DNA from: Ailanthus altissimus
Taxonomy: Eukaryota; Streptophyta; Magnoliopsida; Sapindales; Simaroubaceae
Assembly (NCBI GenBank): GCA_946807835.1
Contig: OX327684.1
Coordinates: forward strand, 35,586,501 to 35,650,500
Direction of reading: 5' to 3'
DNA length: 64,000 bases
Shown: positions 10,281-57,958 of the stretch, in pieces
How the letters are laid out: every line of letters begins with the position of its first letter
Position numbering within the stretch: the stretch's first letter is position 1
Made by a program: the position numbers and the translations under genes
Notes under the pieces: model-generated
The model's database searches: none
The model's input: the letters and a program-made list of their open reading frames with translations, nothing else
What the model was told of the DNA's origin: nothing

Positions 10281-10285
10281 GTTAA

Positions 10286-10711: not shown

Positions 10712-10826
10712 TTCTGGTTGAAGGAGGTCACTATTCACGTATACAATTACTGTTCATACGTACGGTTACTATTCACGTGAAACAGTGGGAGCCGATCCTA
10801 GCAGAAGTAGTTCGTGGTGAAAAGCA

Positions 10827-13800: not shown

Positions 13801-14756
13801 ACATGTTGGTGGCAGGCCCCAACAAAGATCGAGTCCAAGAATTAAAGGCACAGTTGGCTAGGGAATTTGATATGAAGGACTTGGGACCAGCAAACAAGAT
13901 TCTAGGGATGCAAATTCACCGAGACAGAAATAACAGGAAGATTTGGCTTTCTCAGAAGAACTACTTAAAGAAAATCTTGTGGCGCTTCAACATGCAAGAT
14001 TGTAAGCCAATTAGTACCCCACTCCCTGTTAATTTCAAGTTATCCTCTAAGATGTGTCCTAGCAAAGAAGCAGAGAGGAATGAGATGTCTCGAGTACCGT
14101 ATGCATCAGCAGTGGGAAGTTTAATGTTCCCTATGATTTGTACCAGACCAGACATTGCACAAGCAGTGGGAGCAGTTAGTAGATACATGGCGAATCCTGG
14201 TAGAGAGCATTGGGGTTGTGTCAGGAGGATCCTTAGATACATTAAGGGTACCTCAGATGTTGCTTTATGTTACGGAGGATCAGATTTTATTGTTAAGGGC
14301 TATGTGGATTCAGATTTTGCAGGAGATCTTGATAAAAGAAAATCCACTACTGGCTATGTGTTTAAACTTGCAGAAGGAGCTGTAAGCTGGGTTTCGAAAC
14401 TGCAAACTGTTGTGGCATTATCTACTACAGAAGCAGAATACATGGCAGCTACACAAGCTTGCAATGAAGCAATTTGGATACAAAGATTACTGGAGGAGCT
14501 CGGGCACAAGCAAGAGAAAGTTGAATTGTTTTGTGACAGTCAGAGTGCCTTGCACATTGCAAGGAATCCAGCTTTTCATTCAAGAACGAAGCACATAGGT
14601 GTTCAATATCACTTTGTTGGTGAAGTGGTAGAAGATGGAAGTGTGGATATGAAAAAAATTCATACAGATGATAACCTTGCAGATGTGATGACCAAGCCCA
14701 TCAATACCAACAAGTTTGTATGGTGTAGATCCTTGCATGGCCTAGCAGACACGTAG
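10827..14756 (+). CDS. Copia-2 gag-pol polyprotein, 1309 aa
   Basis: One frame encodes the whole copia polyprotein. The order is: gag (UBN2 type, about residues 1-200); zinc knuckle C231-x2-C234-x4-H239-x4-C244; aspartic protease active site D290-S-G; integrase zinc domain H424/H429/C455/C458; integrase catalytic triad D485, D547, E583 with 35 residues between the last two; reverse transcriptase with YVDD at 989-992; and RNase H with YVDSDFAG from 1159 and a later STTEAEY. The frame ends with NLADVMTKPINTNKF just before the stop, the usual copia C-terminus. No stop or frameshift is seen and all catalytic residues I can check are present. The start MAAKYEVEKF fits the gag of Tnt1/Tork-like elements. 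Such proteins form virus-like particles, make cDNA and insert it; whether this copy is expressed is unknown. Confidence 0.97.
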   Translation: MAAKYEVEKFNGGNFTLWKMKIKAILRKNKCLEAIDERPAGITDDIKWNEIDGNAVADLHLALADNVLSSVAEKKTAKEIWDTLIKLYEAKSLHNKIFLKRRLYTLRMTESTSVTEHINTLNTLFSQLTSLGHKIEAGERAEILLQSLPDSYDQLIINLTNNILSDFLVFDDVTAAVLGEERRRKNKEDKQECSQQAEALTMMRGRSTERGPSGSQNHGRPKSRSKKNVKCYHCGKKGHLKKDCWGLKKSVEDKPQGNIASTSDDGEILYSEAATVVESRKRFSDVWLMDSGATWHMTSKREWFHQYEPISGGSVYMGDDHALEIAGVGSIKMKMYDGTVRIIQEVRHVKGLKKNLLSLGKLDNIGCKTQIENGIMKILKGVLVVMKAEKVAANLYMLNGETLQEGDASVASTSSAEESTIMWHRKLGHMSERGLKILSDQNLLPGLKSVHLPFCEHCVTSKQHRLKFSTSSSRSKEILELIHSDVWQAPMMSLGGARYFVSFIDDYSRRCWVYPIKKKSYVFEAFKIFRARVELESEKKIKCLRTDNGGEYTGEDFIAFCQQEGIKRQFSTAYTPQQNGVAERMNRTLLERTRAMLRTAGLAKIFWAEAVKTACYVVNRSPSTAIELKTPMEMWTGKPVDYSHLHTFGSPVYVMYNPQETTKLDPKSRKCLFLGYADGVKGYRLWDPTTHKVVISRDVIFAEDKLQRNDKDDSTVKENPDTTMVQMENNQVQEDSDSPEAAPGHEEQEPAESEATDDRRSTRERRPPAWHSEYVMEAHVAYCLLTEDGEPTTFQEASKSQEVSLWMTAMQEEIEALHKNKTWELVALPRGRKAIGNKWVYKIKRDANDQVERYRARLVVKGYAQKEGIDFNEIFSPVVRLTTVRIVLAMCATFDLHLEQLDVKTAFLHGELEEEIYMLQPEGFKEEGKENLVCRLNKSLYGLKQAPRCWYKRFDSYIISLGYNRLSSDHCTYYKRFEDDNDFIILLLYVDDMLVAGPNKDRVQELKAQLAREFDMKDLGPANKILGMQIHRDRNNRKIWLSQKNYLKKILWRFNMQDCKPISTPLPVNFKLSSKMCPSKEAERNEMSRVPYASAVGSLMFPMICTRPDIAQAVGAVSRYMANPGREHWGCVRRILRYIKGTSDVALCYGGSDFIVKGYVDSDFAGDLDKRKSTTGYVFKLAEGAVSWVSKLQTVVALSTTEAEYMAATQACNEAIWIQRLLEELGHKQEKVELFCDSQSALHIARNPAFHSRTKHIGVQYHFVGEVVEDGSVDMKKIHTDDNLADVMTKPINTNKFVWCRSLHGLADT

Positions 14757-33427: not shown

Positions 33428-33432
33428 GTATG
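33428..33432. repeat. Target-site duplication of the family C array (left)
   Basis: GTATG, matched by 49667-49671. B2 shows the undisrupted order GATCAGTGTATG-C-CTATATCTG, which confirms the empty site. Confidence 0.93.
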
Positions 33433-36286
33433 TGTAGTAACCAGTATCCATAACCGGTAAGAATATGTATATTTATATATATAAATATACGTATTTTATT
33501 TGTATGTGGGTGATCCTTGATTTATATATTGTTATTAGTAGTGTTTTTATATGTTAAGGATATACTATTAGTATTGGGTTTATTTGCAAGACTTTGGAAT
33601 TATTTTAGGGACCAAATTGTTATACTTTGAAAGTTTTGGGGGTGAATTCGTAAATACCAAAAATTAACCACTTAGTATAAAAATACACTTTTAAAAACCC
33701 TAATTCTCTCATTTTGGTCGAGCTACCCATTTTTAGAGAGAGAAGAGAGAAATAAAGGAGAGAGAAAGAGAAGAAGAAGAAGAAAAAGAAGAAGAAAATG
33801 AGAATTTTGGATCTTTAGAGGTATATCACAACTAATTATCAATTTATTGGTGTTAATTAAGTTAATTTCTTTAAGTTTTGATTTTTGGAAATATGTATAA
33901 TTAAGGATTTGATGTGTATTTCGTTTGATATTGTGAGAATTGATGATGATCTATAAGATAGTTTGATAAATCATGATGAATTATGGAATTTCTGCTGGAT
34001 AACCTCTTGATCTAGGAATTTTATAAATTGTTGTGATTCGATTCTGGTTTTTAATTTTGAGTATATGAAATTAGACATGTTTAGGATCATCTGAGACTTT
34101 GAATCGACTGAAAATCTCGGAAATTGAATTTGTAGTGAATTTACCAAAATGACCCTGGAATTCTGGAAATTTCTTGTGTAAACAGTATGATACAGTGGAA
34201 AATAATTTTTGACCTGCTGAATGATCTTTAAAAATTATGAATTTGTGAAATATGATAATTTTATATGTCTAATATGATATACTCGGAATTGAGAATTTGG
34301 ATCAATGTGGTTGAAGTGTTATGAATTTCTAAAGTGTATCAGCTCATTGTAGTATTTGATTAACAGATTTTTAAAGTTATGAAATAAAATAGTTTTAAAA
34401 TACTTTTGGCAGTTATTTGGAAGCCAAATATTTATCATGGACTGAGATATGTGTCAAGAGTAATTATGTGATAGTTTTATAATTTTTGAGTTAGTATATG
34501 ATTTTATAAAATTGGGAGATTGAATACTGTTCAGTAAGTATCTTGATCCTGTCAAGTTTGTAGTTTGGATTCGATGGTGTGTATGGAATGGATTGTGTAG
34601 GAATTTTGATATAATATTCATATATAAGAAGTATATATGAGTCAAGAATGATATATTCTGATTTCGGAGTAATTGGACATCATTTGATGTATTAGAAATT
34701 TTTGTTAAGTGTAAGTGGTCAGAATGACAGGTTTTGAGAAACCAAATATTTAGACCAATTTGATGTGATAAATGCATTGTGTATAATTTTGTAAGCTATT
34801 TAAAGTATTTTGTGTGAATTTTGAGGCTTATGAAAGGATTAATCTCCATTGATAGGTTAAGGAGATTTAAGCCTTGTAGCTGAAAGTGTTAAGAGGTAAG
34901 TATACTAGACTTACTACTGGAATCACAATAAACATAATAATTATTTTGTATGATTTTGTAAATGGGGTTAAGAATATGTTTATGATATGTCAAAGTATAT
35001 TTTGATATGAAATGTGAATTTATGTTTATGAATGTGAGCATTGACATTGAGCATGGACATACATGTGTTTTTGAAAGTGAGCTTTCCAAAATAAGATGCG
35101 TTTAACAAAGAAAGCTTTTGAAGTGTAATATGTCCATGAGAAATATTTTGTGATTTGAGGGTACTTGAACTCACTGTTAACTTAGTAGGCATTTTATGTG
35201 ATTTGTGGAGCCTTTATGTGTGGCCTTTCCTTCGGGATTGGTATATGTTATGTGTTCCGTATGTAGGGAGGATCCTATTGGTACCTAAAGGAAGTGTGAG
35301 TCATCACATTCGTGTGGTGGCGTATTGGTACATGTGAGAGGACTCACCGATGATCAGGGTGAGGGTTTGGCTTTTACCTTCGGGCATAAGTGTTATATAT
35401 GTGTGATTTAAAGACCTCACTTGTACTATTCCTCTCATACGGTATGTCACCTACGAGTGACATTTGGCTCATTATGTGATATGTGATATGTAAGTCCTAC
35501 TAAGTAGTAGTCGAGTAATGGTATTCCTATTATGTGTTTTGAAAGAATGTGTAAGCGCTTACATGATATGTGATTTGATAAGATTATGATTTTGATTGAT
35601 CACAGCATATCATACATATGCATTGTGTACATATATGTATTTGTATTTGATATATGAAAAACTAGTATGCTTACTGAGTTTTATACTCATTATAGTTTAT
35701 GGTGATTTCAGGTAAATAAGGTACATGTGTGCTTAGCGGATTTGGCAAGGCTTCTGCTGTTCCTTGGGTTCCCTAAGTTGCTAGGTTGTTGTGTGTTTCA
35801 TTTGGGGACACGTGGGATAGGATATTTGGTTTGTCCCTATTGAATAAATACTTATGTATTATTTCATTGTGTGTGGATTGGATTTGGTTTAAGTTTTACA
35901 AAGTGTGGTTATTGGATGATTTTAAGTAAGAATTTGCAATGGATATATTCTGGGCTCCCGGTAACAAAGTTGCTACTGGTGACGTAGTAGAGTGTTAATC
36001 TCTGAGAAAACTCTGCGTATCTCCGGTTTAATAATTGTCTCAGTCATAATTCAATTGCTATAATTCTGAAAGAAATTGAAATGAATGTTTAAATATTGTT
36101 AAGAGAAGTTTATATTTATATGTTAGGTTATGGTTGATTTTAGTGTTGAACTTACTAGCAACTTGCTAAGGATTTCTGTGTTGAATGAAAGTTGAAAATT
36201 TTGTGTAATATTATTTATGAGTGCACATGCAGTGAATGAATGTAAGTGATGTCGTGTGTCAGATCTGTTGGGTCTGGGGCGTGACA
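33433..36286 (+). repeat. Family C LTR 1
   Basis: 2854-bp LTR. A TATA-like TATAAAAATAC near 33677 is followed by AAACCCTAA and a long GA-rich leader (about 33736-33800), so the transcript probably starts about 0.27 kb into the LTR and R-U5 is about 2.6 kb. By eye it differs from LTR 3 at four positions: 33930, 34052, 34174 and 36100. The several minus-strand frames inside it are identical in all copies and look like chance frames. Confidence 0.92.
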
Positions 36287-36294
36287 GCTTTTAT

Positions 36295-36306
36295 TGGTAT
36301 CAGAGC
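36295..36306 (+). other. Family C primer-binding site, unit 1
   Basis: TGGTATCAGAGC begins 8 nt after LTR 1. It repeats at 42985-42996. Confidence 0.93.
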
Positions 36307-36731
36307 TAAGATATGATTCTGTAGACTTTTAAGTGTCGAGTCAAGGGAACCGAGCAGATGCCAAATCCTTAGGATTGTATTTGTAGCTTTGTTGTGTAAA
36401 AGTTTGACATATTCCTTAAATTTTGTATGATTTTGTGAAGATGACACAATATCCAAGAGCTGCTAAGATTGTTGTTGTTGTGGATAATGGTACCTTGTGG
36501 ATCTTAATGTTACCATTTAGATTTTCTTTTAAGTTATGACTAATATGCTTAGTAAGAGTGATGTTGAATATCTTATAATGATAATTTGCATGTGATAGAG
36601 CAAATTGAGATAATTTTCTCAATGACAAAATATAGAGAAGTAGAGTATTGAAGACATCAATTGAAACAACTTTTATTGAAAAGGAAAACAACAACACAAC
36701 AACAATAGCAGCAACAAAAATACAATAGAGG

Positions 36732-37397
36732 CTACGGAGTGAGATTTAAGTCTATTTTGCGCTTCTTCTGACTGTCATGAGTAGACCAATCTAACTGATG
36801 CAATGTTGGATTAGGCAGAGGAATAAAAGACTGCAATTGATCAATCAGTTGATCAACAGTTGGAGCTGAAATAAGAATCCGTCGTGCTAGAAGTGGGATG
36901 AATTGTGTTCCCGCTGCATAGTCAAGAAAAGATATCAACCCATCGTAAAAACCATTAACATTTAACAAACCAATGGGTTTTTGGTGGATTTGTAATTGTG
37001 CCCATGAGACAATTTGAAAAATTTCCTCCAAGGTCCCGAAACCTCCTGGTAGAGCTATGAAAGCATCCGCATGCCTAAGCATTTGAGCCATTCGCTCGTG
37101 CATAGATGAGACTTGTAACTCATCCCCAATTGTTTTTCCTACAACATTTTTAATAGCTAGAGGTTTTGGAATGATACCCAAAACTCGACTACCTTTATTG
37201 TGTGCAGCTTTTGCCACAGACCCCATTAACCCTCGGTTACCTCCTCCATATACTAAATGTATATTTCGCTCAGCTAATACCTTACCAAGATTTTCTGCAA
37301 CTTTTGTAAACTCTTCAGTATTCCCAGGGTTGGATCCACAAAAGACACAAATTTTTGTGAATCGACGAGCTGAGGTTTCCTCCATTGTTATGCTCAC
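36732..37397 (-). CDS. LOG: LOG-type cytokinin riboside 5'-monophosphate phosphoribohydrolase, copy 1
   Basis: 221-aa member of the LOG family (lysine-decarboxylase-like Rossmann fold). LOG enzymes split cytokinin riboside 5'-monophosphate into active free-base cytokinin and ribose 5-phosphate, in the cytosol and nucleus. Visible features are ICVFCGSN at 16-23, YGGGNRGLMG at 50-59, the SMHER region at 98-102 with its conserved Arg, and the signature PGGFGTLEE at 117-125. Length is normal for the family. Plant LOG genes usually have several introns and this copy has none, so it probably derives from a processed transcript. It runs antisense to the retroelement and has a TATA box about 50 bp upstream of the ATG. 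The tail ends DLNLTP. An in-frame Met at residue 5 is an alternative start. The frame is intact; enzyme activity is inferred. Confidence 0.92.
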   Translation of the reverse strand: MSITMEETSARRFTKICVFCGSNPGNTEEFTKVAENLGKVLAERNIHLVYGGGNRGLMGSVAKAAHNKGSRVLGIIPKPLAIKNVVGKTIGDELQVSSMHERMAQMLRHADAFIALPGGFGTLEEIFQIVSWAQLQIHQKPIGLLNVNGFYDGLISFLDYAAGTQFIPLLARRILISAPTVDQLIDQLQSFIPLPNPTLHQLDWSTHDSQKKRKIDLNLTP

Positions 37398-37445
37398 CCT
37401 AATCTTTGAATATTTTTGAGTTTGTATAAGGATGCAATAATAATG

Positions 37446-37454
37446 TATTTATAG
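37446..37454 (-). promoter_or_regulatory. TATA box of LOG copy 1
   Basis: CTATAAATA on the minus strand, 49-57 bp upstream of the LOG ATG. Spacing allows a transcript start near 37420 and a leader of about 20-25 nt. Confidence 0.6.
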
Positions 37455-37980
37455 ATAAACAAATTGATAATAGCTGTGGAGCATATGTGTAAGTATGTTC
37501 AAGTATATATTTTTCTCGATTCTTGTGAGGTAAAACAAAAAAAAAGAGAATGAGTTTTACTTTATCATTTTATAAGGGACAATAGGTCGCAAAATCTTGA
37601 ATAAATATATGTTGATATGTAAGTGTGATAAAAATTGTGTCGGAAGTGTGATAAGTTAGGTAAGATAATTAAGAAAAGTCAATAAAAGCCTATTTCATGG
37701 ATTTAGGGACTTAGCCATTTTGGCACTAATGGTCGACAATACATCAATGACTTGAAGACTTTTTGAGCTAACAATTGGACTTTGGACATGAGGCCAAATT
37801 AACTTTATTAATTACAAAGATTTTGTGGTCTTAACATTAATTTTTGGCCGATAGATTAAAAGCAGATATGAAGAAAGATAAAGCACACTTGACATAAAGA
37901 TAAAGCAGTAATCAGTCTCTCTTTGATGTGATAGAGCAACACGGATCTAGTTTCTGTGAAAATAGAAACAGCAATGTAGG

Positions 37981-39174
37981 TCAAAATGAGTCTCCTTGGT
38001 CGCTTTCATCTGTGTCGTATCCGTAAGAGAGAAACTTATGGAGTTGTTGTTCCCATACATTGAATGAGGGCTCTGGCTGAGTGGAATGTGGGTCTACCAT
38101 ATCTTGATCTTCTCCAGGTGAGCTGGTCTGGATGAGGGATGTGCTGGCTTCCTCTTGGATTTGGGTGTCGGTTGGATAAGGTTGGGAGTCTTGAAAGAGG
38201 GATAAGTCAAGATTGGGTTGGTGTTGGTCAAGTTCTGTCGGGACAACTGGCTGAGATTGAGTAGGTTCTGTCGGGACAACTGGCTGAGATTGGGTAGGTT
38301 TTGTCGGGACAGTTAGCTGAGGCCATTGGTGAAGGTTATCCATTGCTTGTCTGTATCTGGCATAATAAGTCATGTTTGGGATATGGTGATGATGAGTAGA
38401 GTAATCTGTATTTCTGAGATGTGAAAGATGATATTTTTGTCTTTGTTGGAATTTGAGTATATTGGCAAAATTCAGGTCTTCTGTAAAGTCAACTTCAACT
38501 TGTTCCCAAGGTGCAGCATCTTCTGGGGAGATCCAAACAGACGGAGGAATTATTTGATTTTCCTGAGCAAGAATTCTTTCAAGTTCTCTCTTTTGCTGAA
38601 TTACTTCTTCAGGCCAGAGCTTAATTGATCCCTTTAGTGAAAGGGTAAATGTGAAGTAATCCTTAACAGTGGGGTAATAATGAATCTCGTGATCTGAAAT
38701 AATCATACCCTTCCGTTGGAGAAGTAAGACTGACCAAAGATGTTGTCTGGGGACTGCAGCATTTGTGTTGTTTGCAATCATGTATTGAAATTTAGTTATC
38801 CACCATGTCTTTGGGTAAAACCATTGGAGAAAAATCAGGGCTGGATGATCTTCATCACATTTTTCTAATTTTTGGAGGGTTCTAAGTAATGGAAATTCCA
38901 TGGCGATTGTATACAGATCCAACAGGTACCATAACAAGTAAAGGACAGGTTTGGACCATTGGGAAAATGGGAAAAAAGAGTGCAGGTGAAAGAAAGGGTA
39001 TTCTAAGTTGAACAAAGGGCCACCAAGAACTGTGAGGCCGTGTTCTTGGACTGCTAAGATGGCGTAGTGTCTGATGAATTCTTTGGCACGGGAATGGAGT
39101 GTTCTGGTTTTGATTAGGTCTGGAAATTGTGGTGGAGAAAAAGGAACAGGGGGAGTTATGATAATGGGATTCAT
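37981..39174 (-). CDS. Unknown 397-aa protein carried by family C, copy 1
   Basis: I do not recognise this protein. Residues 1-210 are rich in aromatic residues and Leu (WFYPKTWWITKFQYM, LYLLWYLLDLY). A Glu/Gln-rich stretch with VWISPEDAAPWEQVEVDF follows. Near 290-325 an 11-residue unit is repeated two and a half times (VPTKPTQSQPV, VPTEPTQSQPV, VPTELDQHQP). The C-terminus is acidic (YGYDTDESDQGDSF). There is no signal peptide, zinc knuckle, protease or RT motif. The frame is 1.2 kb long, uninterrupted, identical in both units, and preceded by a TATA box, so it is likely a real gene. It could be an element-specific antisense gene or captured cellular or viral sequence. Confidence 0.7.
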   Translation of the reverse strand: MNPIIITPPVPFSPPQFPDLIKTRTLHSRAKEFIRHYAILAVQEHGLTVLGGPLFNLEYPFFHLHSFFPFSQWSKPVLYLLWYLLDLYTIAMEFPLLRTLQKLEKCDEDHPALIFLQWFYPKTWWITKFQYMIANNTNAAVPRQHLWSVLLLQRKGMIISDHEIHYYPTVKDYFTFTLSLKGSIKLWPEEVIQQKRELERILAQENQIIPPSVWISPEDAAPWEQVEVDFTEDLNFANILKFQQRQKYHLSHLRNTDYSTHHHHIPNMTYYARYRQAMDNLHQWPQLTVPTKPTQSQPVVPTEPTQSQPVVPTELDQHQPNLDLSLFQDSQPYPTDTQIQEEASTSLIQTSSPGEDQDMVDPHSTQPEPSFNVWEQQLHKFLSYGYDTDESDQGDSF

Positions 39175-39235
39175 TATGAAGATGGTAAGAAGGTTGGTTT
39201 TATTTATTGCTAGAAAAGTGATTATGAGGTTTAGG

Positions 39236-39245
39236 CTATTTATAG
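39236..39245 (-). promoter_or_regulatory. TATA box of the 397-aa gene, copy 1
   Basis: CTATAAATAG on the minus strand, about 62-71 bp upstream of the ATG. It is nearly the same box as that of LOG. Confidence 0.6.
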
Positions 39246-40110
39246 AGTTTTATGAAAGAAAATTAATAATCGTTTTGTCCATTTCTTTTACGTGGATGAC
39301 GTTAAAGGAATAGTTAAAAGAATCATATTTGCCATCGCAGTAATTGTGCTAGTAGAATCTTTTCTATTTGAAATCGAGCATATTAGAAAAAGCAGACATG
39401 TCAATCTCAATGAGAAAATGATGTCCAATAAGGTGGACTATTTTTTTAAGAGTTAAAGTAAGAGATATAATGTTAAGATCTATAGTTTAAGAATCAGTTG
39501 AACTAAAGGTCTTTTTATTGAAGTTGATTTTTGATCGTTTAAGATAATGCTTTCAATATTCTGATTTGAATGACAACTTAGTTGCGTAGAAATACTACAT
39601 TTTTTTTTTTAATGATATCAAGGTAGTGAATGATATTATGACGTATGAGTATATGTTGAAGGGATTAAAATTTTTAAAGGAGTTAAGAATTTTATGTAAG
39701 AGATTAGTATGGGTATTCTACATCTATGTTATTCTTTAATGAATGAAAGGTGAAGTGTATAGATACCCATTAAATATTGAACGAATGGGAAAAAAGAATA
39801 AAAATATGTGTGTATAATTTTATAAGTCCATAATGTGTGTCATATGTTTATTTTATGGATATATGTTCCGTACTCCTCTCGTATACTCAACTATGAGCCA
39901 ACTTAGAGATAATCTAACATATGAATGAGTATTTATTAGGATTTTGGACCACAATGAGCAAATCCTATATACAAGGAAGATTGCTTTGTAAATGTTTTAT
40001 GAATAAACTATACAGTTGAAAAGGAAAATTGAGAATGAGAAGAAGAAATGAGATCAAGTATCCTCATCTATGTGCTTAAGTTATGAATTTCGAGGACGAA
40101 ATTCTTATAA

Positions 40111-40122
40111 GGAGGGGAGAAT
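40111..40122 (+). other. Family C polypurine tract, unit 1
   Basis: GGAGGGGAGAAT lies directly before LTR 2, about 10 nt after the GAATTTCGAGGACGAAATTC tract typical of the 3' end of chromovirus pol. It repeats at 46801-46812. Confidence 0.88.
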
Positions 40123-42976
40123 TGTAGTAACCAGTATCCATAACCGGTAAGAATATGTATATTTATATATATAAATATACGTATTTTATTTGTATGTGGG
40201 TGATCCTTGATTTATATATTGTTATTAGTAGTGTTTTTATATGTTAAGGATATACTATTAGTATTGGGTTTATTTGCAAGACTTTGGAATTATTTTAGGG
40301 ACCAAATTGTTATACTTTGAAAGTTTTGGGGGTGAATTCGTAAATACCAAAAATTAACCACTTAGTATAAAAATACACTTTTAAAAACCCTAATTCTCTC
40401 ATTTTGGTCGAGCTACCCATTTTTAGAGAGAGAAGAGAGAAATAAAGGAGAGAGAAAGAGAAGAAGAAGAAGAAAAAGAAGAAGAAAATGAGAATTTTGG
40501 ATCTTTAGAGGTATATCACAACTAATTATCAATTTATTGGTGTTAATTAAGTTAATTTCTTTAAGTTTTGATTTTTGGAAATATGTATAATTAAGGATTT
40601 GATGTGTATTTCGTTTGATGTTGTGAGAATTGATGATGATCTATAAGATAGTTTGATAAATCATGATGAATTATGGAATTTCTGCTGGATAACCTCTTGA
40701 TCTAGGAATTTTATAAATTGTTGTGATTCGATTCTGGTTTTGAATTTTGAGTATATGAAATTAGACATGTTTAGGATCATCTGAGACTTTGAATCGACTG
40801 AAAATCTCGGAAATTGAATTTGTAGTGAATTTACCAAAATGACCCTGGAATTCTGGAAATTTCCTGTGTAAACAGTATGATACAGTGGAAAATAATTTTT
40901 GACCTGCTGAATGATCTTTAAAAATTATGAATTTGTGAAATATGATAATTTTATATGTCTAATATGATATACTCGGAATTGAGAATTTGGATCAACGTGG
41001 TTGAAGTGTTATGAATTTCTAAAGTGTATCAGCTCATTGTAGTATTTGATTAACAGATTTTTAAAGTTATGAAATAAAATAGTTTTAAAATACTTTTGGC
41101 AGTTATTTGGAAGCCAAATATTTATCATGGACTGAGATATGTGTCAAGAGTAATTATGTGATAGTTTTATAATTTTTGAGTTAGTATATGATTTTATAAA
41201 ATTGGGAGATTGAATACTGTTCAGTAAGTATCTTGATCCTGTCAAGTTTGTAGTTTGGATTCGATGGTGTGTATGGAATGGATTGTGTAGGAATTTTGAT
41301 ATAATATTCATATATAAGAAGTATATATGAGTCAAGAATGATATATTCTGATTTCGGAGTAATTGGACATCATTTGATGTATTAGAAATTTTTGTTAAGT
41401 GTAAGTGGTCAGAATGACAGGTTTTGAGAAACCAAATATTTAGACCAATTTGATGTGATAAATGCATTGTGTATAATTTTGTAAGCTATTTAAAGTATTT
41501 TGTGTGAATTTTGAGGCTTATGAAAGGATTAATCTCCATTGATAGGTTAAGGAGATTTAAGCCTTGTAGCTGAAAGTGTTAAGAGGTAAGTATACTAGAC
41601 TTACTACTGGAATCACAATAAACATAATAATTATTTTGTATGATTTTGTAAATGGGGTTAAGAATATGTTTATGATATGTCAAAGTATATTTTGATATGA
41701 AATGTGAATTTATGTTTATGAATGTGAGCATTGACATTGAGCATGGACATACATGTGTTTTTGAAAGTGAGCTTTCCAAAATAAGATGCGTTTAACAAAG
41801 AAAGCTTTTGAAGTGTAATATGTCCATGAGAAATATTTTGTGATTTGAGGGTACTTGAACTCACTGTTAACTTAGTAGGCATTTTATGTGATTTGTGGAG
41901 CCTTTATGTGTGGCCTTTCCTTCGGGATTGGTATATGTTATGTGTTCCGTATGTAGGGAGGATCCTATTGGTACCTAAAGGAAGTGTGAGTCATCACATT
42001 CGTGTGGTGGCGTATTGGTACATGTGAGAGGACTCACCGATGATCAGGGTGAGGGTTTGGCTTTTACCTTCGGGCATAAGTGTTATATATGTGTGATTTA
42101 AAGACCTCACTTGTACTATTCCTCTCATACGGTATGTCACCTACGAGTGACATTTGGCTCATTATGTGATATGTGATATGTAAGTCCTACTAAGTAGTAG
42201 TCGAGTAATGGTATTCCTATTATGTGTTTTGAAAGAATGTGTAAGCGCTTACATGATATGTGATTTGATAAGATTATGATTTTGATTGATCACAGCATAT
42301 CATACATATGCATTGTGTACATATATGTATTTGTATTTGATATATGAAAAACTAGTATGCTTACTGAGTTTTATACTCATTATAGTTTATGGTGATTTCA
42401 GGTAAATAAGGTACATGTGTGCTTAGCGGATTTGGCAAGGCTTCTGCTGTTCCTTGGGTTCCCTAAGTTGCTAGGTTGTTGTGTGTTTCATTTGGGGACA
42501 CGTGGGATAGGATATTTGGTTTGTCCCTATTGAATAAATACTTATGTATTATTTCATTGTGTGTGGATTGGATTTGGTTTAAGTTTTACAAAGTGTGGTT
42601 ATTGGATGATTTTAAGTAAGAATTTGCAATGGATATATTCTGGGCTCCCGGTAACAAAGTTGCTACTGGTGACGTAGTAGAGTGTTAATCTCTGAGAAAA
42701 CTCTGCGTATCTCCGGTTTAATAATTGTCTCAGTCATAATTCAATTGCTATAATTCTGAAAGAAATTGAAATGAATGTTTAAATATTGTCAAGAGAAGTT
42801 TATATTTATATGTTAGGTTATGGTTGATTTTAGTGTTGAACTTACTAGCAACTTGCTAAGGATTTCTGTGTTGAATGAAAGTTGAAAATTTTGTGTAATA
42901 TTATTTATGAGTGCACATGCAGTGAATGAATGTAAGTGATGTCGTGTGTCAGATCTGTTGGGTCTGGGGCGTGACA
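40123..42976 (+). repeat. Family C LTR 2 (shared middle LTR)
   Basis: It serves as 3' LTR of unit 1 and 5' LTR of unit 2. It agrees with LTR 3 against LTR 1 at four positions (40620, 40742, 40864, 42790) and has one private C at 40996. Confidence 0.92.
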
Positions 42977-43421
42977 GCTTTTATTGGTATCAGAGCTAAG
43001 ATATGATTCTGTAGACTTTTAAGTGTCGAGTCAAGGGAACCGAGCAGATGCCAAATCCTTAGGATTGTATTTGTAGCTTTGTTGTGTAAAAGTTTGACAT
43101 ATTCCTTAAATTTTGTATGATTTTGTGAAGATGACACAATATCCAAGAGCTGCTAAGATTGTTGTTGTTGTGGATAATGGTACCTTGTGGATCTTAATGT
43201 TACCATTTAGATTTTCTTTTAAGTTATGACTAATATGCTTAGTAAGAGTGATGTTGAATATCTTATAATGATAATTTGCATGTGATAGAGCAAATTGAGA
43301 TAATTTTCTCAATGACAAAATATAGAGAAGTAGAGTATTGAAGACATCAATTGAAACAACTTTTATTGAAAAGGAAAACAACAACACAACAACAATAGCA
43401 GCAACAAAAATACAATAGAGG

Positions 43422-44087
43422 CTACGGAGTGAGATTTAAGTCTATTTTGCGCTTCTTCTGACTGTCATGAGTAGACCAATCTAACTGATGCAATGTTGGA
43501 TTAGACAGAGGAATAAAAGACTGCAATTGATCAATCAGTTGATCAACAGTTGGAGCTGAAATAAGAATCCGTCGTGCTAGAAGTGGGATGAATTGTGTTC
43601 CCGCTGCATAGTCAAGAAAAGATATCAACCCATCGTAAAAACCATTAACATTTAACAAACCAATGGGTTTTTGGTGGATTTGTAATTGTGCCCATGAGAC
43701 AATTTGAAAAATTTCCTCCAAGGTCCCGAAACCTCCTGGTAGAGCTATGAAAGCATCCGCATGCCTAAGCATTTGAGCCATTCGCTCGTGCATAGATGAG
43801 ACTTGTAACTCATCCCCAATTGTTTTTCCTACAACATTTTTAATAGCTAGAGGTTTTGGAATGATACCCAAAACTCGACTACCTTTATTGTGTGCAGCTT
43901 TTGCCACAGACCCCATTAACCCTCGGTTACCTCCTCCATATACTAAATGTATATTTCGCTCAGCTAATACCTTACCAAGATTTTCTGCAACTTTTGTAAA
44001 CTCTTCAGTATTCCCAGGGTTGGATCCACAAAAGACACAAATTTTTGTGAATCGACGAGCTGAGGTTTCCTCCATTGTTATGCTCAC
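43422..44087 (-). CDS. LOG: LOG-type phosphoribohydrolase, copy 2
   Basis: Same 221-aa frame as copy 1, with one amino-acid change seen near the C-terminus: IPLSNP instead of IPLPNP, from A at 43505 in place of G at 36815. The change lies outside the catalytic PGGFGTLEE and YGGGNRGLMG motifs, so both copies could encode active enzyme. Intronless and antisense to the element, like copy 1. Confidence 0.92.
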   Translation of the reverse strand: MSITMEETSARRFTKICVFCGSNPGNTEEFTKVAENLGKVLAERNIHLVYGGGNRGLMGSVAKAAHNKGSRVLGIIPKPLAIKNVVGKTIGDELQVSSMHERMAQMLRHADAFIALPGGFGTLEEIFQIVSWAQLQIHQKPIGLLNVNGFYDGLISFLDYAAGTQFIPLLARRILISAPTVDQLIDQLQSFIPLSNPTLHQLDWSTHDSQKKRKIDLNLTP

Positions 44088-44135
44088 CCTAATCTTTGAA
44101 TATTTTTGAGTTTGTATAAGGATGCAATAATAATG

Positions 44136-44144
44136 TATTTATAG
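44136..44144 (-). promoter_or_regulatory. TATA box of LOG copy 2
   Basis: CTATAAATA on the minus strand, identical in position and sequence to the box of copy 1. Confidence 0.6.
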
Positions 44145-44670
44145 ATAAACAAATTGATAATAGCTGTGGAGCATATGTGTAAGTATGTTCAAGTATATAT
44201 TTTTCTCGATTCTTGTGAGGTAAAACAAAAAAAAAGAGAATGAGTTTTACTTTATCATTTTATAAGGGACAATAGGTCGCAAAATCTTGAATAAATATAT
44301 GTTGATATGTAAGTGTGATAAAAATTGTGTCGGAAGTGTGATAAGTTAGGTAAGATAATTAAGAAAAGTCAATAAAAGCCTATTTCATGGATTTAGGGAC
44401 TTAGCCATTTTGGCACTAATGGTCGACAATACATCAATGACTTGAAGACTTTTTGAGCTAACAATTGGACTTTGGACATGAGGCCAAATTAACTTTATTA
44501 ATTACAAAGATTTTGTGGTCTTAACATTAATTTTTGGCCGATAGATTAAAAGCAGATATGAAGAAAGATAAAGCACACTTGACATAAAGATAAAGCAGTA
44601 ATCAGTCTCTCTTTGATGTGATAGAGCAACACGGATCTAGTTTCTGTGAAAATAGAAACAGCAATGTAGG

Positions 44671-45864
44671 TCAAAATGAGTCTCCTTGGTCGCTTTCATC
44701 TGTGTCGTATCCGTAAGAGAGAAACTTATGGAGTTGTTGTTCCCATACATTGAATGAGGGCTCTGGCTGAGTGGAATGTGGGTCTACCATATCTTGATCT
44801 TCTCCAGGTGAGCTGGTCTGGATGAGGGATGTGCTGGCTTCCTCTTGGATTTGGGTGTCGGTTGGATAAGGTTGGGAGTCTTGAAAGAGGGATAAGTCAA
44901 GATTGGGTTGGTGTTGGTCAAGTTCTGTCGGGACAACTGGCTGAGATTGAGTAGGTTCTGTCGGGACAACTGGCTGAGATTGGGTAGGTTTTGTCGGGAC
45001 AGTTAGCTGAGGCCATTGGTGAAGGTTATCCATTGCTTGTCTGTATCTGGCATAATAAGTCATGTTTGGGATATGGTGATGATGAGTAGAGTAATCTGTA
45101 TTTCTGAGATGTGAAAGATGATATTTTTGTCTTTGTTGGAATTTGAGTATATTGGCAAAATTCAGGTCTTCTGTAAAGTCAACTTCAACTTGTTCCCAAG
45201 GTGCAGCATCTTCTGGGGAGATCCAAACAGACGGAGGAATTATTTGATTTTCCTGAGCAAGAATTCTTTCAAGTTCTCTCTTTTGCTGAATTACTTCTTC
45301 AGGCCAGAGCTTAATTGATCCCTTTAGTGAAAGGGTAAATGTGAAGTAATCCTTAACAGTGGGGTAATAATGAATCTCGTGATCTGAAATAATCATACCC
45401 TTCCGTTGGAGAAGTAAGACTGACCAAAGATGTTGTCTGGGGACTGCAGCATTTGTGTTGTTTGCAATCATGTATTGAAATTTAGTTATCCACCATGTCT
45501 TTGGGTAAAACCATTGGAGAAAAATCAGGGCTGGATGATCTTCATCACATTTTTCTAATTTTTGGAGGGTTCTAAGTAATGGAAATTCCATGGCGATTGT
45601 ATACAGATCCAACAGGTACCATAACAAGTAAAGGACAGGTTTGGACCATTGGGAAAATGGGAAAAAAGAGTGCAGGTGAAAGAAAGGGTATTCTAAGTTG
45701 AACAAAGGGCCACCAAGAACTGTGAGGCCGTGTTCTTGGACTGCTAAGATGGCGTAGTGTCTGATGAATTCTTTGGCACGGGAATGGAGTGTTCTGGTTT
45801 TGATTAGGTCTGGAAATTGTGGTGGAGAAAAAGGAACAGGGGGAGTTATGATAATGGGATTCAT
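44671..45864 (-). CDS. Unknown 397-aa protein carried by family C, copy 2
   Basis: Predicted protein identical to copy 1 (37981-39174), including the VPTxPTQSQPV repeats and the acidic tail. Function not recognised. Confidence 0.7.
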   Translation of the reverse strand: MNPIIITPPVPFSPPQFPDLIKTRTLHSRAKEFIRHYAILAVQEHGLTVLGGPLFNLEYPFFHLHSFFPFSQWSKPVLYLLWYLLDLYTIAMEFPLLRTLQKLEKCDEDHPALIFLQWFYPKTWWITKFQYMIANNTNAAVPRQHLWSVLLLQRKGMIISDHEIHYYPTVKDYFTFTLSLKGSIKLWPEEVIQQKRELERILAQENQIIPPSVWISPEDAAPWEQVEVDFTEDLNFANILKFQQRQKYHLSHLRNTDYSTHHHHIPNMTYYARYRQAMDNLHQWPQLTVPTKPTQSQPVVPTEPTQSQPVVPTELDQHQPNLDLSLFQDSQPYPTDTQIQEEASTSLIQTSSPGEDQDMVDPHSTQPEPSFNVWEQQLHKFLSYGYDTDESDQGDSF

Positions 45865-45925
45865 TATGAAGATGGTAAGAAGGTTGGTTTTATTTATTGC
45901 TAGAAAAGTGATTATGAGGTTTAGG

Positions 45926-45935
45926 CTATTTATAG
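45926..45935 (-). promoter_or_regulatory. TATA box of the 397-aa gene, copy 2
   Basis: CTATAAATAG, same place as in unit 1. Confidence 0.6.
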
Positions 45936-46812
45936 AGTTTTATGAAAGAAAATTAATAATCGTTTTGTCCATTTCTTTTACGTGGATGACGTTAAAGGAA
46001 TAGTTAAAAGAATCATATTTGCCATCGCAGTAATTGTGCTAGTAGAATCTTTTCTATTTGAAATCGAGCATATTAGAAAAAGCAGACATGTCAATCTCAA
46101 TGAGAAAATGATGTCCAATAAGGTGGACTATTTTTTTAAGAGTTAAAGTAAGAGATATAATGTTAAGATCTATAGTTTAAGAATCAGTTGAACTAAAGGT
46201 CTTTTTATTGAAGTTGATTTTTGATCGTTTAAGATAATGCTTTCAATATTCTGATTTGAATGACAACTTAGTTGCGTAGAAATACTACATTTTTTTTTTT
46301 AATGATATCAAGGTAGTGAATGATATTATGACGTATGAGTATATGTTGAAGGGATTAAAATTTTTAAAGGAGTTAAGAATTTTATGTAAGAGATTAGTAT
46401 GGGTATTCTACATCTATGTTATTCTTTAATGAATGAAAGGTGAAGTGTATAGATACCCATTAAATATTGAACGAATGGGAAAAAAGAATAAAAATATGTG
46501 TGTATAATTTTATAAGTCCATAATGTGTGTCATATGTTTATTTTATGGATATATGTTCCGTACTCCTCTCGTATACTCAACTATGAGCCAACTTAGAGAT
46601 AATCTAACATATGAATGAGTATTTATTAGGATTTTGGACCACAATGAGCAAATCCTATATACAAGGAAGATTGCTTTGTAAATGTTTTATGAATAAACTA
46701 TACAGTTGAAAAGGAAAATTGAGAATGAGAAGAAGAAATGAGATCAAGTATCCTCATCTATGTGCTTAAGTTATGAATTTCGAGGACGAAATTCTTATAA
46801 GGAGGGGAGAAT

Positions 46813-49666
46813 TGTAGTAACCAGTATCCATAACCGGTAAGAATATGTATATTTATATATATAAATATACGTATTTTATTTGTATGTGGGTGATCCTTGA
46901 TTTATATATTGTTATTAGTAGTGTTTTTATATGTTAAGGATATACTATTAGTATTGGGTTTATTTGCAAGACTTTGGAATTATTTTAGGGACCAAATTGT
47001 TATACTTTGAAAGTTTTGGGGGTGAATTCGTAAATACCAAAAATTAACCACTTAGTATAAAAATACACTTTTAAAAACCCTAATTCTCTCATTTTGGTCG
47101 AGCTACCCATTTTTAGAGAGAGAAGAGAGAAATAAAGGAGAGAGAAAGAGAAGAAGAAGAAGAAAAAGAAGAAGAAAATGAGAATTTTGGATCTTTAGAG
47201 GTATATCACAACTAATTATCAATTTATTGGTGTTAATTAAGTTAATTTCTTTAAGTTTTGATTTTTGGAAATATGTATAATTAAGGATTTGATGTGTATT
47301 TCGTTTGATGTTGTGAGAATTGATGATGATCTATAAGATAGTTTGATAAATCATGATGAATTATGGAATTTCTGCTGGATAACCTCTTGATCTAGGAATT
47401 TTATAAATTGTTGTGATTCGATTCTGGTTTTGAATTTTGAGTATATGAAATTAGACATGTTTAGGATCATCTGAGACTTTGAATCGACTGAAAATCTCGG
47501 AAATTGAATTTGTAGTGAATTTACCAAAATGACCCTGGAATTCTGGAAATTTCCTGTGTAAACAGTATGATACAGTGGAAAATAATTTTTGACCTGCTGA
47601 ATGATCTTTAAAAATTATGAATTTGTGAAATATGATAATTTTATATGTCTAATATGATATACTCGGAATTGAGAATTTGGATCAATGTGGTTGAAGTGTT
47701 ATGAATTTCTAAAGTGTATCAGCTCATTGTAGTATTTGATTAACAGATTTTTAAAGTTATGAAATAAAATAGTTTTAAAATACTTTTGGCAGTTATTTGG
47801 AAGCCAAATATTTATCATGGACTGAGATATGTGTCAAGAGTAATTATGTGATAGTTTTATAATTTTTGAGTTAGTATATGATTTTATAAAATTGGGAGAT
47901 TGAATACTGTTCAGTAAGTATCTTGATCCTGTCAAGTTTGTAGTTTGGATTCGATGGTGTGTATGGAATGGATTGTGTAGGAATTTTGATATAATATTCA
48001 TATATAAGAAGTATATATGAGTCAAGAATGATATATTCTGATTTCGGAGTAATTGGACATCATTTGATGTATTAGAAATTTTTGTTAAGTGTAAGTGGTC
48101 AGAATGACAGGTTTTGAGAAACCAAATATTTAGACCAATTTGATGTGATAAATGCATTGTGTATAATTTTGTAAGCTATTTAAAGTATTTTGTGTGAATT
48201 TTGAGGCTTATGAAAGGATTAATCTCCATTGATAGGTTAAGGAGATTTAAGCCTTGTAGCTGAAAGTGTTAAGAGGTAAGTATACTAGACTTACTACTGG
48301 AATCACAATAAACATAATAATTATTTTGTATGATTTTGTAAATGGGGTTAAGAATATGTTTATGATATGTCAAAGTATATTTTGATATGAAATGTGAATT
48401 TATGTTTATGAATGTGAGCATTGACATTGAGCATGGACATACATGTGTTTTTGAAAGTGAGCTTTCCAAAATAAGATGCGTTTAACAAAGAAAGCTTTTG
48501 AAGTGTAATATGTCCATGAGAAATATTTTGTGATTTGAGGGTACTTGAACTCACTGTTAACTTAGTAGGCATTTTATGTGATTTGTGGAGCCTTTATGTG
48601 TGGCCTTTCCTTCGGGATTGGTATATGTTATGTGTTCCGTATGTAGGGAGGATCCTATTGGTACCTAAAGGAAGTGTGAGTCATCACATTCGTGTGGTGG
48701 CGTATTGGTACATGTGAGAGGACTCACCGATGATCAGGGTGAGGGTTTGGCTTTTACCTTCGGGCATAAGTGTTATATATGTGTGATTTAAAGACCTCAC
48801 TTGTACTATTCCTCTCATACGGTATGTCACCTACGAGTGACATTTGGCTCATTATGTGATATGTGATATGTAAGTCCTACTAAGTAGTAGTCGAGTAATG
48901 GTATTCCTATTATGTGTTTTGAAAGAATGTGTAAGCGCTTACATGATATGTGATTTGATAAGATTATGATTTTGATTGATCACAGCATATCATACATATG
49001 CATTGTGTACATATATGTATTTGTATTTGATATATGAAAAACTAGTATGCTTACTGAGTTTTATACTCATTATAGTTTATGGTGATTTCAGGTAAATAAG
49101 GTACATGTGTGCTTAGCGGATTTGGCAAGGCTTCTGCTGTTCCTTGGGTTCCCTAAGTTGCTAGGTTGTTGTGTGTTTCATTTGGGGACACGTGGGATAG
49201 GATATTTGGTTTGTCCCTATTGAATAAATACTTATGTATTATTTCATTGTGTGTGGATTGGATTTGGTTTAAGTTTTACAAAGTGTGGTTATTGGATGAT
49301 TTTAAGTAAGAATTTGCAATGGATATATTCTGGGCTCCCGGTAACAAAGTTGCTACTGGTGACGTAGTAGAGTGTTAATCTCTGAGAAAACTCTGCGTAT
49401 CTCCGGTTTAATAATTGTCTCAGTCATAATTCAATTGCTATAATTCTGAAAGAAATTGAAATGAATGTTTAAATATTGTCAAGAGAAGTTTATATTTATA
49501 TGTTAGGTTATGGTTGATTTTAGTGTTGAACTTACTAGCAACTTGCTAAGGATTTCTGTGTTGAATGAAAGTTGAAAATTTTGTGTAATATTATTTATGA
49601 GTGCACATGCAGTGAATGAATGTAAGTGATGTCGTGTGTCAGATCTGTTGGGTCTGGGGCGTGACA
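46813..49666 (+). repeat. Family C LTR 3
   Basis: Right-hand LTR of the array, ending GGGGCGTGACA and followed by the GTATG duplication. It differs from LTR 2 at one position seen (T at 47686). Confidence 0.92.
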
Positions 49667-49671
49667 GTATG
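49667..49671. repeat. Target-site duplication of the family C array (right)
   Basis: GTATG, partner of 33428-33432. B1 continues after it with TCTATATCTGG. Confidence 0.93.
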
Positions 49672-55260: not shown

Positions 55261-57958
55261 TGTCACGCCTCAGACCCAAAAGACCTAACACACGAGATCA
55301 CTTACATTCATTCAATAATACTTAAACATTCATTTTAATTTCTTTCAGAATTATAGTAATTGAATTATGACTGGGACAATTAGTAAACCGGAGATACGCA
55401 GAGTTTTCTCAGAGATTAACACTCTACTACGTCACCAGTAGCAACTTTATTACCGGAAGCCCAGAATATATTCATTGCAAATTCTTACTTAAAATCAATC
55501 CATTACTACACTTGGTGAAACTTAAACTAAATCCAACCACACACAATAAAATAATACATAAGTATTTATTCACTAGGGACAAATCAAATATCTTATCCCA
55601 CGTGTCCCCAAATGAAACACTTAGCAACCTAACAACTTAGGGAACCCAAGGAACAGCAGAAGCCTTGCCAAATTCGCTAAGCACACATGTACCTTATTTA
55701 CCTGAAATCACCATAAACTATAATGAGTATAAAACTCAGTAAGCATACTAGTTTTTCATATATCAAATACAAATACATATATGTACACAATGCATATGTA
55801 TGATATGCTGTGATCAATCAAAATCATAATCTTATCAAATCACATATCATGTAAGCGCTTACACATTCTTTCAAAACACATAATAGGAATACCATCACTC
55901 AACTACTACTTAGTAGGACTTACATATCACATATCACATAATGAGCCAAATGTCACTCGTAGGTGACATACCGTATGAGAGGAATAGTACAAGTGAGGTC
56001 TTTAAATCACACATATATAACGCTTATGCCCGAAGGTAAAAGCCAAACCCTCACCCTGATCATCGGTGAGTCCTCTCACATGTACCAATACGCCACCACA
56101 CGAATGTGATGACTCACACTTCCTTTAGGTACCAATAGGATCCTCCCTACATACGGAACACATAACATATACCAATCCCAAAGGAAAGGCCACACATAAA
56201 GGCTCCACAATCACATAAAATGCCTACTAAGTTAACAGTGAGTTCAAGTACCCTCAAAATACAAAATATTTCTCATGGACATATTACACTTCAAAAGCTT
56301 TCTTTATTAAACACATCTTATTTTGAAAGCTCACTTACAAAAACACATGTATGTCCATGCTCAATGTCAATGCTCACATTCAGAAACATATATTCACATT
56401 TCATATCAAAATATACGTTGACATAACATAAACATATTCTTAACCCTATTTGTAAAATCATACAAAACAATTACTATGTTTATTGTGATTTCAGTAAAAA
56501 GTCTAGTATACTTACCTCTTAACACTTTCAGCTACAAGGCTTAAATCTCCTTAACCTATCAATGGAGATTAATCCTTTCATAAGCCTCACAATTCACACA
56601 AAATACTTTAAATAGCTTACAAAATTATACACAATGTATTTATCACATCAAATTGGTCTAAATACTTGGTTTCTCAAAACCTGTCATTCTGACCACTTAC
56701 ACTTAACAAAATTCTCTAATACATCAAATGATGTCCAATTACTCCAAAATCAGAATATACCATTCTTGACTCATATATCCTTCTTATATATGAATATTAT
56801 ATCAAATTTCCTACACAATCCATTCCATACACACCATCGAATCCAAACTACAAACCTGACAGGATCAAGATACTTACTGAACAGTATTCAATCTCCCAAT
56901 TTTATAAAATCATATACTAACTAAAAAATTATAAAACTATCACATAATTACTCTTAACACATATCTCAGTCCATGATAAATATTTGGCTTCCAAATAACT
57001 GCCAAAAGTATTTTAAAACTATTTTATTTCATAACTTTAAAAATCTGTTAATCAAATACTACAATGAGCTGATACACTTTAGAAATTCATAACACTTCAA
57101 CCACATTGATCCAAATTCTCATTTCCGAGTATATCATATTAGACATATAAAATTATCATATTCCACAAATTCGTAATTTTTAAAGATTATTCAGCATGTC
57201 AAAAATTATTTTCCACTGTATCATACTGTTTACACAGGAAATTTCCAGAATTCCAGGGTCATTTTGGTAAATTCACTATAAATTCAATTTCTAGAATTTT
57301 CAATCGATTCAAAGTCTCAGATGATCCTTAACATTTCTAATTTCATATACTCAAAATTCAAAACCAGAATCGAATCACAACAATTTATAAAATTCCTAGA
57401 TCAAGAGGTTATCCAGCAGAAATTCCATAATTCATCATGATTTATCAAACTATCTTATAGATCATCATCAATTCTCATATGATCTTACGAAATACACAAC
57501 AAATCCTCAATTATACATATTTCCAGAAATCAAAAATTAAAGAAATTAGCTTAATTAACACCAATAAATTGATAATTAGTTGTGATATACCTCTAAAGAT
57601 CCAAAATTCCAATTTCTTCTTCTCTTTCTCTCTCCTTTATTTCTCTCTTCTCTCTCTTAAAATGGGTAGCTCGACCTAAAAATGGTAAATTAGGGTTTAA
57701 AAGTGTATTTTTATACTAAGAGGCTAATTTTTGGTATTTACAAATTTGCCCCCAAAACTTTCAAAGTATAACAATTTGGTCCCTAAAATAATTCCAAAGT
57801 CTTGCAAATAAACCCAATACTAATAGTATATCCTTAACCTATAAAAATACTACTAATAACAATATATAAATCAGGGATCACCCACATACAAATAAAATAC
57901 GTATATTTATATATATAAATATACATATTATTACCGGTTATGGATACTGGTTACTACA
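55261..57958 (-). mobile_element. Family C solo LTR
   Basis: 2698-bp LTR of family C in minus orientation (TGTAGTAACCAG...GAGGCGTGACA when reverse-complemented) with a perfect AAAGT duplication. It is 156 bp shorter than the array LTRs, mainly from one gap of about 150 bp near the U5 end (around 55315). It shows many scattered substitutions, so it is an older insertion than the array. The internal region was lost by LTR-LTR recombination. Confidence 0.93.

Follow-up and report, generated by a model that had tools for sequence, protein, structure and literature searches.

Does a putative cytokinin-activation gene that lies inside a long terminal repeat (LTR) retrotransposon serve that element, or is it an accidental passenger? 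The question is raised by a 64,000-nucleotide stretch of the Ailanthus altissimus genome (contig OX327684.1, positions 35,586,501 to 35,650,500; here, the window), in which the internal region of a retroelement encodes a LONELY GUY (LOG)-type enzyme, LOG1, antisense to the element. We think it probable, with somewhat better than even confidence, that this is a non-autonomous LTR retrotransposon family carrying a retroelement-adapted LOG as an accessory gene. An initial annotation of the window had reported the gene; that observation was confirmed and is larger than the window alone shows.

The window contains an LTR-internal-LTR-internal-LTR tandem array (33428-49671) bounded by GTATG target-site duplications (TSDs). 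Its features, apart from the second antisense open reading frame (ORF), are as follows:
33428..33432, no strand: TSD GTATG at the array's left edge, reading GTATG then TGTAGTAACC
33433..36286, plus: LTR 1, 2854 bp
36287..40122, plus: internal region copy 1, without gag-pol, with two antisense ORFs
36295..36306, plus: primer binding site TGGTATCAGAGC, 8 nt inside the LTR end
36672..36677, minus: AATAAA 3' of LOG1, common to a second element (locus L059, below)
36732..37385, minus: LOG1 gene, 217 amino acids (aa), intronless, stop included (ATG at 37385, stop at 36732)
36735..36752, minus: codons for DLNLTP, the EAR-type (DLNxxP) C terminus of LOG1
36756..36767, minus: codons for the basic run KKRK ahead of the EAR-type motif
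37446..37454, minus: TATA-like box CTATAAATA 5' of LOG1, with the same sequence in L059
40109..40121, plus: polypurine tract AAGGAGGGGAGAA, just ahead of the next LTR
40123..42976, plus: LTR 2, common to both tandem copies
42977..46812, plus: internal region copy 2, 1 difference in 3836
43422..44075, minus: second tandem copy of the LOG1 gene, one residue changed (P191S)
46813..49666, plus: LTR 3
49667..49671, no strand: TSD GTATG at the array's right edge

Because GTATG lies directly outside the first and last LTRs, the array is a single integrated unit. The small number of differences, 5, 1, and 4 of 2854 sites between LTR pairs and 1 of 3836 bases between the internal regions (36287-40122 and 42977-46812), also shows that it is young. 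The LTRs (2854 bp, with ends TGTAG...GTGACA and thus of the TG...CA kind), the 5-bp TSD, the primer binding site, the polypurine tract, the lack of gag-pol, and the dispersed copies described below are together those of a non-autonomous LTR retrotransposon. We take TGGTATCAGAGC at 36295-36306 to be a primer site of the initiator tRNA-Met type. The chromovirus-type (Tekay-type) label of the element is tentative and comes from its 3' motifs. As initially annotated, no gag-pol-sized frame was found in the internal region, where the only stop-to-stop frames of at least 180 aa are those of LOG and of a second antisense ORF, ORF397.

The description of LOG1 as intact, intronless, and full-length also held: the 217-aa frame scored above the cut-offs of PF03641 (E=4e-39, 134.1 bits; cut-off 27) and TIGR00730 (183.6 bits; cut-off 96.35). 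A second, lower-scoring Pfam match was to the SLOG-cluster family PF18306 (56.1 bits), and a GTG 4 codons upstream of the ATG at 37385 is an alternative start. The nearest solved relative of LOG1 is the Arabidopsis LOG structure 2a33 (E=2e-63), which was also the best match of its predicted fold (pLDDT, 83.8; TM score, 0.93 by target length). The PGGxGTxxE motif and the R98 and E121 columns are present in LOG1 and its relatives; across 33 representatives of its clade (see below), R98 was invariant and the E121 position was E or D. The R98 column has a role in LOG catalysis. At the position aligned with E121, the bacterial entry 5zbk, which has AMP bound, carries A, and 5zbj carries E. LOG1 fell below the cut-off of the NCBIfam equivalog NF058542 (125.5 bits against 300). 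We dropped this cut-off as proof or disproof of LOG identity because canonical controls also fail it (the Arabidopsis LOG relative P0122, 132.4 bits; Vitis P0174, 131.9 bits).

Copies across the genome and evidence of selection on the protein

We searched 37 contigs with a total of 939,062,666 bases. The non-coding spacer that separates the two ORFs of the family supplied a 28-mer, which occurred at 694 places with at most 3 mismatches (reversed control, 0); a 35-place LOG pattern occurred at 2164 places (control, 0). Both counts include fragments. In a protein search of the genome, 148 of 150 scored LOG matches had no stop, in a list that runs best first and is biased accordingly. LTR-sharing arrays look frequent: among 100 spacer-exact copies listed, 23 fell into 11 arrays with a spacing of 6.5 to 6.7 kb, one of them a triplet.

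For a sample chosen regardless of LOG, we used every exact spacer match on contig C1, 30 in all, a set that leans young because an exact spacer was required and that comes from one contig. Twenty-two copies were read as sequence (L005, L006, and L039-L058) and the other 8 were judged from protein-search rows. The initial annotation had held that the gene would be a one-off passenger if other copies lacked it, or if most carried it broken with a ratio of nonsynonymous to synonymous rates (dN/dS) near 1. LOG was present in all 30 copies and open in 23, counting as open that of L039, which has a 12-bp in-frame deletion; together with the N/S results below, neither of these two outcomes was seen in the sample. 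In six loci, L003-L008, the LTR pairs had 0 to 3 differences over about 711 sites, while the LOGs of these copies were 0.8 to 1.5% different from the window LOG; in these six, therefore, a large part of the divergence arose before insertion.

With the window copy as reference, we sorted the variants of the 22 sequenced copies into classes and took the expected ratio of nonsynonymous to synonymous variants (N/S) from the mutation spectrum of the spacer. The 8 copies outside this subset are intact, so that any bias of the subset would work against LOG conservation. Read in its true frame, LOG had 46 nonsynonymous variants (4 of them stops) and 34 synonymous ones, which is 0.46 of the neutral ratio (p=0.00072); the five other frames gave 1.21, 1.39, 1.04, 0.54, and 1.71. 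A comparison of the window LOG with the LOG of L059 yielded a dN of 0.158, a dS of 0.457, and a dN/dS of 0.35 (N against S, Fisher p=1.9e-7). These N/S statistics support purifying selection on the predicted LOG protein while the elements spread. Figures for all copies (56 loci; N/S, 0.38) were not used as main evidence, because these loci had been picked by similarity to the window copy and some by similarity to its LOG protein; the 22-locus sample served that purpose.

A second element family and the retro-LOG clade

When the genome was searched with 71 aa of Arabidopsis LOG3, 150 rows were scored: 12 had an identity of at least 69%, and below these lay a large second LOG group, mostly at 46 to 51%. 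Four of the 12 (L060-L063) are host LOG loci, in which gaps that resemble introns split the LOG matches into separate blocks, mostly 42 to 60% identical to LOG1. From the second group we examined L059 and L064-L068, of which only L059 is long and L065-L067 were read in part. L059 encodes reverse transcriptase, RNase H, and integrase in a single 1119-aa frame, followed on the same strand by a 186-aa ORF and an open LOG; this arrangement, in which LOG follows a Ty3-type pol in the same orientation, was seen at this one locus. No chromodomain was among the Pfam matches of L059. Its element is putatively Athila-like; two Athila-like elements with similarity to LOGL4 are reportedly mentioned in the abstract of Steinbauerova et al. 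The ORF between pol and LOG (L059:5873-6430, minus strand) matches PF05515 (Viral_NABP; E=1.9e-7, 31.7 bits; cut-off 23), a family of viral nucleic-acid-binding proteins, and is a possible second accessory gene.

The homology of L059 to the window extends beyond the coding sequence:
36601..37455, minus: segment homologous to the L059 LOG cassette, 77.6% over 902 alignment columns

The two cassettes share the TATA box, the 5' leader, the AATAAA, and the downstream flank up to a G-rich GGGGGGAGG tract of L059, which we take to be its polypurine tract. The nearest relative of LOG1 that we found is the LOG of another retroelement, in sense orientation behind pol, and the four host LOG loci examined are intron-split and more distant. 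The initial proposal that the window element captured a parental host LOG directly is therefore probably wrong; as far as the sequences indicate, the window family probably took an intronless LOG cassette second-hand, and reversed it, from a pol-bearing type of element. A gene that bears a promoter yet has no introns most plausibly arises when an element captures it in sense and its introns are then spliced out of the element RNA. Because an antisense copy could not lose introns via element RNA, the window LOG is likely derived from a sense copy.

The relatives of LOG1 reach beyond Ailanthus. Among 7999 scored candidates in a protein search, 350 had E<=1e-60. The 120 of these that were listed include named sources in Reevesia, Xanthoceras, Paulownia, Populus (several rows each), and Diplodiscus, and many others are proteins of 216 to 217 aa on short contigs. 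We built a 62-row tree from 34 of the 120 relatives and 20 of 120 canonical LOGs, both hand-chosen, together with LOG1, the L059 LOG, three host genes, LOG8, and two bacterial LOGs. Thirty-six retro-type rows lay on one side of a branch (99/95) and 24 canonical plus 2 bacterial rows on the other, so that a retro-LOG clade with relatives from Reevesia, Populus, Paulownia, and Xanthoceras stands apart from canonical LOGs; the canonical set is mostly LOG3-like, which limits placing of the clade's exact sister group. Three annotated Xanthoceras sorbifolium proteins (P0003, P0004, and P0006) resemble fused tandem LOG fragments and are perhaps misannotated element LOGs. With so many copies and so broad a set of relatives, the gene seems to be retained for a reason.

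The clade also has its own C-terminal tail. We compared 113 relatives of 200 to 235 aa (7 of the 120 fell outside this range) with 114 canonical LOGs of 195 to 260 aa (6 of 120 outside). An EAR-type motif was found in the last 14 residues of 95 of the 113 relatives (94 LxLxL and 1 DLNxxP) and at the C terminus of 0 of the 114 canonical LOGs; the preceding basic run occurred in 102 of 113 and 1 of 114, respectively. LxLxL and DLNxxP are described as accepted EAR patterns (PMC6283911). The sole DLNxxP relative, P0002, is the window family itself (98% identical). The tail of that family reads KKRKIDLNLTP (DLNxxP form), with DLNLTP in 55 of 56 window-family loci, and that of L059 reads KKRRIDLTLRL (LxLxL form). 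When 112 rows were clustered at 85%, 29 of the 33 representatives had the motif. Identity in the three alternating Leu columns of the tail was 0.93 to 0.94, against 0.31 to 0.58 in the columns between them and 0.39 in the preceding linker. On a tree of the 33 representatives and 10 canonical LOGs built with the tail excluded, the distribution of the tail needs no more than three changes, such as a single gain above the P0025/P0057 lineages plus two losses. Four early-branching retro-type LOGs (P0025, P0039, P0057, and P0061) end at KRRRLD or KKRRLA, just ahead of the position of the EAR motif. LOG1 is thus like canonical LONELY GUY enzymes (Arabidopsis LOG3, 2a33, and LOG8, 1ydh) in its fold, PGGxGTxxE motif, and catalytic columns and unlike them in being intronless, in belonging to a separate clade, and in its basic and EAR-type tail.

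Proposed mechanism, competing explanations, and precedents

In the course of events that we propose, a Ty3-type element would have captured a plant LOG long ago, with its own promoter, in sense and 3' of pol, and the introns would have been lost in later cycles through RNA. A pol-LOG element whose LOG cassette and flanks are homologous to those of the window is present in the genome, as seen at one locus. From an element of this type, the homology of L059 suggests, the window family would have acquired the intronless cassette second-hand and in reverse, and the N/S statistics support purifying selection on the LOG protein during the spread of the element. A TATA promoter of its own would drive LOG transcription in antisense to the element, and the LOG product would be an active cytokinin-riboside-monophosphate phosphoribohydrolase. 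The own-promoter antisense layout is plausible because an antisense extra ORF with its own promoter has been reported for Grande (PMC7264820). Judging from the conserved motif, the basic run and EAR-type tail may take the protein to the nucleus and to a TOPLESS-type corepressor. The most likely benefit to the element, and the weakest step, would be a host cell kept dividing or permissive. The integrity of the gene, its homology to LOG, the conservation of its motifs, and selection are shown or have statistical support; expression of LOG1, its enzyme activity, localization, and TOPLESS binding, and the benefit to the element, are predictions. A bolder claim, which we consider less likely than not, is that eudicot LTR retrotransposons have long maintained, and passed between unrelated families, a two-function protein, in which a cytokinin-activating enzyme is joined to a nuclear corepressor-recruiting EAR tail gained once in a retroelement lineage and which steers both the hormone state and the transcription of the host cell.

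Several observations weigh against a selected accessory gene. LOG was broken in 7 of the 30 sampled copies (L006, L040, L042, L046, L047, L048, and L050), of which L047, L048, and L050 have a common stop at codon 200, lie at most 23 kb apart, and may be non-independent; it was also interrupted in L064 and L068, two of the three second-group LOGs that were read nearly whole (that of L059 is open). Over the 22 loci, the number of variants per site in LOG (0.122) was not below that of the spacer (0.116), so that the case for selection is carried by the N/S skew, and one wrong frame, on the minus strand, was skewed as well (0.54, p=0.0099; the other four, 1.04 to 1.71). Nor is LOG unique in this respect, for ORF397 is N/S-skewed too, if more weakly (0.64). 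R98 was nearly, but not fully, invariant in a wider, 39-row alignment. The tail motif is missing in 18 of 113 relatives, and LxLxL is short enough that 5 of the 114 canonical LOGs have one somewhere. The linkage of pol and LOG was seen at one locus, capture and splicing are proposed steps, and the relatives in other species are judged to be probably element-borne on the basis of their copy number and their single-ORF form. The support throughout comes from sequence and predicted structure, and expression, catalysis, and binding are all predicted from these.

It is in our judgment unlikely that LOG was caught once and rides as a passenger in a young, fast-spreading family, its openness reflecting youth. 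The near-identical LTRs (1 to 5 differences of 2854 in the window; 0 to 3 of about 711 in L003-L008), the 7 broken copies, and the equal variant densities of LOG and spacer in the 22 sequenced loci all fit such a history. However, the N/S skew is strongest in the true frame of LOG, the dN/dS between the window and L059 LOGs is well below 1, the full-length frame is kept in two element families and a multi-species clade, and the Leu columns of the tail are conserved. The N/S tests led us to reject a one-off passenger as the main explanation and to retain it as a rival. A selected protein might also do another job: it could be an SLOG-type nucleotide phosphoribohydrolase whose targets are nucleotide pools or signals, not cytokinin, and which would in that way aid reverse transcription or counter silencing. 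LOG-type folds and motifs suit nucleotide 5'-monophosphates generally, bacterial type-I LOGs have been solved with AMP, and LOG1 has the second match to PF18306; we regard this proposal, too, as improbable, given that an Arabidopsis LOG is the nearest solved relative, that the catalytic columns are kept, and that the EAR-type tail points to the nucleus and not to nucleotide pools.

The antisense orientation and the internal TATA box could instead mean that the LOG transcript acts as RNA, pairing with the genomic RNA of the element and feeding small RNAs, and for plant LTR elements both own-promoter antisense ORFs and a potential double-stranded RNA role have been discussed (PMC7264820). This is quite improbable, since the N/S skew is seen on the protein and since the same gene is in sense orientation in L059, so that antisense orientation is not conserved. 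Finally, the promoter-like and polyadenylation-like signals of LOG1 might mark an ordinary host LOG that was hit or surrounded by an element insertion, an explanation that can hardly be right. The LTRs and LOG lie together inside the TSDs, the spacer recurs at 694 places with LOG adjoining in all 30 sampled copies, and the host LOGs examined have introns, with those in the tree falling in the other clade. The TSD and the dispersed copies refute a host gene at this locus, and the initial view of LOG as element cargo stands. The preferred explanation thus remains a retroelement-adapted LOG kept as an accessory gene.

The initial annotation had called this cargo unusual, a judgment tempered by earlier work: Citrus LTR-retrotransposon consensuses are reported to contain LOG-type (YgdH) domains, as are those of Populus trichocarpa when a laxer filter is applied, in a study that credits Steinbauerova et al. 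2011 (PMC9289625). The window family resembles those cases in having a LOG-type gene within Gypsy-type elements of eudicots and differs from what is described there in being non-autonomous, in the antisense LOG, in its 2164 LOG-pattern places in one genome, and in the selection tests, the multi-order clade, and the EAR-type tail (PMC9289625). Our literature searches found no report of the LOG clade, its selection, or its EAR tail. Thus, the kind is known, and the clade, selection, and tail are new relative to the literature searched. Grande gene23, RIRE2, and Retand likewise have an antisense extra ORF, and that of Grande has its own promoter; these ORFs are described as lacking clear protein similarity and sit with gag-pol, whereas LOG1 is a recognizable enzyme gene without gag-pol (PMC7264820). 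Phalaenopsis LTR elements have also acquired and kept a cellular enzyme domain, but there the enzyme is different and the elements are large, and here the clade extends across several orders. As a foreign EAR-motif protein in a plant cell, LOG1 would be comparable to the TOPLESS-interacting pathogen effectors Jsi1 (PMC8126959) and HaRxL21 (PMC7446885), except that its carrier is a retroelement, its motif sits on an enzyme, and its binding is a prediction from the motif.

Cellular genes captured by plant retrotransposons tend to be regarded as accidents. Here, LOG looks selected as a protein, occurs in two element families of one genome, and belongs to a clade that spans several plant orders and has a conserved added motif. 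Should the enzyme prove active, the Ailanthus genome and similar ones would hold many promoter-bearing cytokinin switches, which could alter growth once released, as when silencing breaks down. Annotations that name such genes "LOGL10" or hypothetical host genes may need revision. One small enzyme with one short tail also offers a direct route to asking what extra genes do for retrotransposons.

ORF397 and neighboring features

The second antisense ORF of the internal region is present in both tandem copies:
37981..39174, minus: ORF397, orphan ORF, copy 1, 397 aa, no Pfam match
44671..45864, minus: ORF397, second tandem copy

ORF397 has no match in Pfam or NCBIfam profile searches and had chance-level matches only against PDB and PHROGs (E of 2.2 and 0.52). 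A protein search returned one near-identical protein and practically no other relatives, and the predicted structure was uninformative (pLDDT, 33.5). Its N/S ratio in the 22 sequenced copies (0.64 of neutral, p=0.0035) is a mild purifying signal, and it has its own TATA-like CTATAAATA upstream.

Elsewhere in the window, a solo LTR of a related subfamily (55261-57958, minus strand) is piecewise 87 to 97% identical to the array LTRs and has an apparent 5-bp duplication, AAAGT, at both sides. A 1311-aa open frame at 10821-14756 (plus strand), which by eye looks like an intact Copia-type polyprotein, sits between direct repeats at 10284 and 14833.

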